Positions 20,135-39,065 of a DNA stretch of 42,771 bases are shown in pieces (position 1 is the stretch's first letter; the number at the start of each line of letters is the position of its first letter). A program made the translations under genes and the position numbers. Source of the DNA: Calditrichia bacterium (lineage in GTDB: Bacteria > Calditrichota > Calditrichia > Calditrichales > Calditrichaceae); assembly GCA_026983775.1 (NCBI GenBank), contig JALSTK010000130.1, forward strand, positions 1-42,771, given 5' to 3'. The notes under the pieces were generated by a model. The model saw nothing but the letters and a program-made list of their open reading frames with translations, did not search any database and was not told the DNA's origin.

Positions 20135-20446
20135 TCAATTGGTCCGTTCGACCTGATTCCGCAATAACGGATTGCAGGGAACTATCCGTATCAAATTGAA
20201 TCGATTCAGATCATTGATTTCCCGTTCTCTTTTTATAGCAACGGATTTTGAAGGGAAAGCTTCCGTATAGACCAGTACCCATGGGATTCCCCGTTTTGTG
20301 TATTTACCCCAAGCAGCATTGTGTCTTATTAATCGTTTTTCAAGGTCATGGGTATAACCGATATAATAACGATTTAATTTTTTGGCTCTATCGTGTTTCT
20401 TGTGAAGCCGTATATTAACTGGGGGCCGATAAAAGGATTTAAACAA
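20135..20446 (-). pseudogene. GIY-YIG endonuclease gene truncated by a repeat element
   Basis: From residue 22 onward the frame is a standard small GIY-YIG nuclease: KKLNRYYIGYTHDLEKRLIRHNAAWGKYTKRG ... WVLVYTEAFPSKSVAIKREREI, containing the YIG half, the catalytic Arg (EKRLIRHN) and the late Glu (KREREI). The first 21 codons (20384-20446) come from the left end of repeat copy A, so the expected beta strand with the GIY half (usually [FY]xVYIL) is missing. I searched the minus strand beyond the repeat, up to the tRNA, and found no GIY half. The remaining frame could make a 103-residue protein, but without the first strand and its Tyr it should not be a working nuclease. Small GIY-YIG proteins cleave DNA; several are linked to genomic repeats. 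Confidence 0.8.
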
Positions 20447-36728: not shown

Positions 36729-36873
36729 GGCTCTACCGGGTTTCTTGTGAAGCCGTATATTAACGGAAGACTGATAAAAGGAATTAAACAATTTTTTATT
36801 GTTTCGTTCATCTTACATCACTTCGGGATGATTTAAGGATGCGGCCTTTAACCACAAGAATCCCGGTAGAGCC
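36729..36873. mobile_element. MITE-like element, copy B (short form)
   Basis: 145 bp bounded by inverted repeats GGCTCTACCGGGTTTCTTGT and its near-perfect complement ending GGTAGAGCC (20 of 21 positions pair). The left 70 bp match copies A and C. The sequence then jumps at CGTTCATCTT straight to ACATCACTTCGGGATGATTTAAGGATG, omitting the whole hairpin module. No clear target duplication is seen (ATATTGCG left, ATTCTCAG right), so it is old or altered. Confidence 0.85.
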
Positions 36874-38618: not shown

Positions 38619-38626
38619 TTTAAATG
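38619..38626. repeat. Target-site duplication, left of copy C
   Basis: TTTAAATG, repeated exactly at 39058-39065 on the other side of the element. Confidence 0.85.
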
Positions 38627-39057
38627 GGCTCTACCGGGGTTCTTGTGAAGTCATATAATAAATAAAGACTGACAATATGATTTTACTGTTTCGTTCATTT
38701 TGCATTTAATAATAAAAGTATCTGAAGGATACAAATGTAAGTAGCCACAGGCGAAGCCTGTGGTAAAGTGGTAAAAGCGAGCGTGACGCTGAAGGCGTCA
38801 AAAGTGTAACTAATAATAGCATTCTAACGAAATAGGAGACCCTATACATTAAAAGGCCTGGTTTATTTTACCGCCTTGCGGGGTTACATCTTGCCCACAG
38901 GCTTGGCTCCTGCCCGGCGGCTGACGGATGTGGCTACTCATATTACATCACTTTGTGATGATTTAAAGATAGGATATGAAGTAAATCTAATTTTTTAGAA
39001 AAATGATTTAAGGATGGCATTTTTACGGCGTTTAACCACAAAAAACCCGGTAGAGCC
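38627..39057. mobile_element. MITE-like element with ISL3-type ends, copy C (complete)
   Basis: 431 bp with inverted ends GGCTCTACCGGGGTTCTTGT and complement ending CCCGGTAGAGCC, flanked by a perfect 8-bp direct repeat. Ends starting GGCTCT and 8-bp duplications are typical of the ISL3 family; no transposase is inside. The interior carries the hairpin module, including CCACAGGC-GAA-GCCTGTGG, GTATC(T)-GAA-GGATAC, TGACGC(T)-GAA-(G)GCGTCA and CATCAC-TTT-GTGATG. Near the right end GATGATTTAAAG is repeated as AATGATTTAAGG after an AT-rich insert. Confidence 0.9.
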
Positions 39058-39065
39058 TTTAAATG
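39058..39065. repeat. Target-site duplication, right of copy C
   Basis: TTTAAATG, identical to 38619-38626. Confidence 0.85.

Follow-up and report, generated by a model that had tools for sequence, protein, structure and literature searches.

The stretch between positions 38619 and 39065 of the window, by which we mean the entire 42,771 nucleotides analysed here, raises the question whether a short segment without a transposase gene, framed by identical 8-bp repeats, was placed there by transposition, and if so, by which family of transposases. The data presented below lead us to place it in the ISL3 family as a non-autonomous miniature transposon, or MITE, a reading to which we assign a probability of roughly 0.93.

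Boundaries of the element and its copies in the host genome

The 8-bp repeat TTTAAATG is present at positions 38619-38626 and again at 39058-39065, and the element enclosed by these duplications (38627-39057) measures exactly 431 bp. The coordinates, the length and the flanking duplication given in the preliminary description are thus exact to the base. The 21-nt inverted ends that it proposed (38627-38647 and 39037-39057) were likewise found, although they are imperfect, with 19/21 (90%) complementary positions. The left inverted end GGCTCTACCGGGGTTCTTGTGAAG (38627-38650, plus strand) corresponds to the end that precedes the transposase gene in ISL3 relatives, and the right inverted end, reading GGCTCTACCGGGTTTTTTGTGGTT in the inward direction (39034-39057, minus strand), to the end downstream of it. 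In line with the description of an element devoid of a transposase, the 431 bp contain no open reading frame of 100 or more amino acids, and neither an outward promoter nor a terminator was found within them. The location is intergenic, with a gene for an AAA/DUF4143 ATPase (minus strand) on the left and a GMC-oxidoreductase-type gene on the other side.

The internal region is occupied by an imperfect palindrome of considerable length, accompanied by short hairpins. Inverted-repeat analysis (I3) placed the outer arms of the palindrome at positions 38734-38749 and 38929-38944 of the plus strand. On the same strand, sequence and consensus folding indicate the hairpins GTATCTGAAGGATAC (38718-38732), GACGCTGAAGGCGTC (38785-38799) and CATCACTTTGTGATG (38946-38960), and the hairpin CCACAGGC-GAA-GCCTGTGG spans positions 38745-38763. 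The central hairpin occurs 56 times in the host genome; 39 related genomes are essentially devoid of it. These hairpins had been regarded as an unusual cargo, a view that we do not share on either count. The additional hairpin sites inspected outside the main copies, which might have represented an independent repeat, turned out to be truncated family members; the hairpins are therefore the element's own body, found nowhere else in the host genome, and stem-loop structures have been described as typical of MITEs (PMC11448079).

Among the matches listed, at least 40 related copies of the 431-bp element, with identities of 76-90%, are present in the host genome (4.03 Mb in 179 contigs). Correspondingly, the end 12-mer GGCTCTACCGGG, allowing up to one mismatch, occurs 101 times in this genome, as compared to 13 occurrences of the reversed control. 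For the duplication statistics we used the 43 copies having both ends. The 8-bp flanks are identical in 13 of these and match in at least seven of eight positions in 19, whereas cross-pairing left with right flanks between copies yields chance expectations of 0.07 and 0.5, respectively. Flank identity peaks at 8 bp, no other length between 4 and 11 stands out, and the left 8-bp flanks are composed of 84% A+T versus 56% for the window. Target duplications are hence present in other copies as well, and the earlier claims of genuine transposition and of a MITE hold: the element is multi-copy, lacks a transposase, possesses inverted ends and is flanked by an 8-bp duplication in many of its copies.

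No two copies are identical, nearest neighbours share 91-97% of their bases, and the divergence is star-like; the spread is therefore old. Moreover, two types of left end (A and B) and the presence or absence of a right-hand segment of approximately 55 bp are found among the copies in all four combinations, indicating recombination between copies. The family is old and probably inactive in its host, and among the genomes compared its related copies are confined to this one. As no relative from the same family shares the DNA flanking the 431-bp element, we did not find a vacant counterpart in these relatives of the site that would read AATTTAAATGAATT before insertion.

Matching ends on ISL3 elements of related genomes

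Of 116 other genomes, a single one, the Calditrichota MAG Dive96_bin3.89 (G036), contains the end 19-mer GGCTCTACCGGGNTTCTTG with one mismatch allowed; both matches there bound an ISL3 element or a fragment thereof. This element is 1288 bp in length and encodes a transposase of 410 amino acids with the domain PF01610 (E=1.7e-71), an ISL3 zinc ribbon and an ISL3 helix-turn-helix, which scores 314 bits against the NCBI ISL3 equivalog NF033550. The ends of the MITE agree with those of the G036 element in 21/24 (left) and 22/24 bases (right). The complete genome of a member of the host's own family (G005) contains about 16 full copies of a transposase that is 74% identical to the G036 protein. We read 13 of the corresponding elements: each comprises 1288 bp, the copies differ from each other by 0-11 bases, and perfect A+T-rich 8-bp duplications, such as AAAAGATT and TAAATTAA, flank 12 of the 13. 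Their ends match those of the MITE in 19-20/24 bases.

The left ends contain GTGAAG in the MITE and in G036 and GTGAAA in G005, whereas the right ends contain GTGG, and this left/right asymmetry (AAG versus GGNT in the match to G036) is kept between the MITE and its ISL3 relatives; in the insertion sequences, the left-type end lies upstream of the transposase gene. A Cloacimonadota MAG harbours a related ISL3 element with the ends GGCACTACAAGATTTTCTGTG, the 8-bp duplication ACAATAAT and GTGAAA at its left end. The 1288-bp elements of G005 and G036 thus share the ends and their asymmetry with the MITE, and those of G005 also the A+T-rich 8-bp duplications, but unlike the MITE they encode the 410-amino-acid transposase, and beyond the ends there is no obvious sequence in common. 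The matching ends, the asymmetry and the 8-bp duplications in relatives together indicate that both the ends and the duplication length of the MITE derive from this ISL3 clade, as the family assignment in the preliminary description had anticipated. A match in another genome (G007) represents a coding-looking stretch without the ends and was judged to be due to chance, and when a degenerate form of the MITE end was compared with the viral contigs of IMG/VR, no exact match resulted.

ISL3-driven MITEs with stem-loops have already been published, and the present one is a new family. The 187-nt MITE of Microcystis aeruginosa resembles it in its GGCTCT-type ends (GGCTCTTCG), 8-nt duplications, stem-loop and ISL3 elements with matching ends (PMC11448079). 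In Microcystis, the genome that carries the MITE also encodes its ISL3 partner, and about 30 copies are identical (PMC11448079), whereas the element described here is 431 bp long, its copies have diverged and the assembly contains no partner. A MITE of Methanosarcina acetivorans, which is paired with the ISL3 element ISMac21, is likewise a non-autonomous ISL3 derivative with inverted ends of similar size, yet it resides in an archaeal host, is shorter (179 bp) and is present in only 6 copies (PMC3852290). The ISL3 elements ISArsp7 and ISPst2 have 24-bp ends starting with GG and 8-bp duplications, as does the present MITE, but differ in species and in the inner end sequence; the ISArsp7 end begins with GGCTCTTCG and terminates in GGTGAAT (PMC6305408). 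The family described here belongs to an ordinary, well-documented kind of genomic parasite and leaves the general understanding unchanged. What it contributes is an ISL3 MITE family of Calditrichota that is well resolved and whose autonomous relatives are identified in neighbouring genomes.

The missing partner and competing explanations

The preliminary description proposed searching the host genome for an ISL3-type transposase gene with matching ends. ISL3 domain matches occur there at seven places, and at best these genes are 30-39% identical to the G036 protein. The intact pair on contig C154 has a different end (GGTTCAACAGTTAAATC), and its end sequence GGTTCAACAGTTAAATCTATGG matches the MITE at only 10-13/24 bases; the others are broken, as is the gene on C139 with its internal stop codons, or are fragments. 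Across the 179 contigs of the assembly, we found no ISL3 gene bounded by matching ends. A search for a transposase between GGCTCTACCGGG ends was equally negative: the only promising spacing above 1 kb (1303 bp, on C136) reflects two copies in a duplicated segment, and an unpaired end at C67:16389 belongs to a truncated copy near the contig end, with no transposase seen. We also observed that the C154 pair (L100 2673-5479; G000:C154) comprises two tandem, nearly identical ISL3 elements with the ends GGTTCAACAGTTAAATCTATGGGTAA, a type unrelated to the MITE ends, and that a tandem array of units of about 124 bp (L102 1268-2022; G000:C87) lies near an ISL3 fragment.

Since the ISL3 genes of the host are distant and the sole definable ends do not match, the assembly lacks the partner, an absence that is no proof of loss because the assembly is divided into 179 contigs. 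For the same lack of a gene with matching ends, the supply of transposase in trans can be placed only in the past, as an inference: a matching ISL3 transposase would once have been present and have driven the spread, and would since have been lost or reside in unassembled sequence. The diverged copies fit with a driver that is gone, and the family may serve as a useful case of a MITE whose driver appears lost. The missing partner bears on current activity and not on the type of the ends.

In its structure, the element consists of two ISL3 insertion-sequence ends around approximately 380 bp of non-coding, palindrome-rich DNA. A transposase made elsewhere in the cell would have recognised both ends and moved the element, leaving 8-bp duplications at A+T-rich sites. 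Within a single genome of a Calditrichota lineage, the element thereby reached at least 40 locations. Divergence of the copies followed, along with recombination among them and deletions at the palindrome that removed internal pieces.

Several transposase families generate 8-bp duplications, and the host genome itself contains a gene of the IS1595 type. Mobilisation by a family of the IS6, IS1595, IS256 or IS66 type, with ends that resemble those of ISL3 by convergence, would therefore account for the flanks. It is nevertheless very improbable, given that the match to ISL3 ends extends over 19-22/24 bases with the left/right asymmetry kept, and that the end 19-mer, in the one other genome containing it, bounds an ISL3 transposase. 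We attach even less credence to the notion that the copies constitute a segmentally duplicated repeat, either REP-like or a structural RNA gene, which was spread by recombination. Some copies indeed have hundreds of bases of flanking DNA in common and were copied along with larger repeats, and the predicted fold is more stable than that of shuffled sequences (z = -5.3). Yet 13 copies carry different perfect 8-bp duplications, and these duplications at independent sites already disfavour such an origin. Moreover, the element has no match in Rfam, on which ground an RNA family was excluded, and changes on both sides of a pair were found in only 2 of the 70 pairs predicted by consensus folding, one of them splitting along subfamilies, so that covariation provides no good support for a functional RNA.

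Changes at the palindrome and larger repeats

Compared with one another, the many copies of the MITE document the ways in which a long quasi-palindrome is altered, namely by exchange of its arms and by deletion. Across copies, hardly any changes are seen in the CCACAGGC/GCCTGTGG stem, whereas its loop occurs as 11 different triplets. In a few copies (L015, L077 in part, and the one at 20384 in the window) the positions of the longer and the shorter arm are swapped without inversion of the loop. Template switching at quasi-palindromes has been described as a mutational process (PMC7202029) and offers the simplest reading of this exchange. As the stem is almost invariant, the loop has 11 forms and the arms are swapped in few copies, one might alternatively envisage a structure maintained by selection or by repair between the arms, such as a DNA cruciform or an RNA, which would benefit the element or have a regulatory effect on its neighbours; we regard this as unlikely.

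The window contains two further copies, both on the plus strand. The second (36729-36873) is a deletion form of 145 bp that lacks both the palindromic core and a target duplication. Similar short forms of 145-183 bp lacking the palindrome are found at L054, L075, L076 and L096, and their junctions differ, as expected for deletions at the palindrome. The third copy (20384 to about 20746) has a decayed left end (GGCTCTATCGTG), a truncated right end and exchanged palindrome arms. It adjoins a small GIY-YIG gene (20135-20446, minus strand); such a gene and MITE copies are also neighbours on C133 (L068), apparently by segmental duplication.

In addition, we observed a dispersed repeat of about 600 bp (AAAGTATACGGAGTGAAATTTGC...) at L028 (552-1171), L044, L068, L082, L051, L074 and L077. 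In several places its junction with the left-hand portion of the MITE falls at one common internal point, which indicates that this half of the MITE was amplified inside a larger repeat. Likewise, six MITE copies (L027, L034, L049, L072, L025 and L074) have similar flanking DNA (...GACTGTAAATAAATCCTTACTT) in common, from which it follows that, once the MITE had inserted, these loci were spread as parts of larger units.
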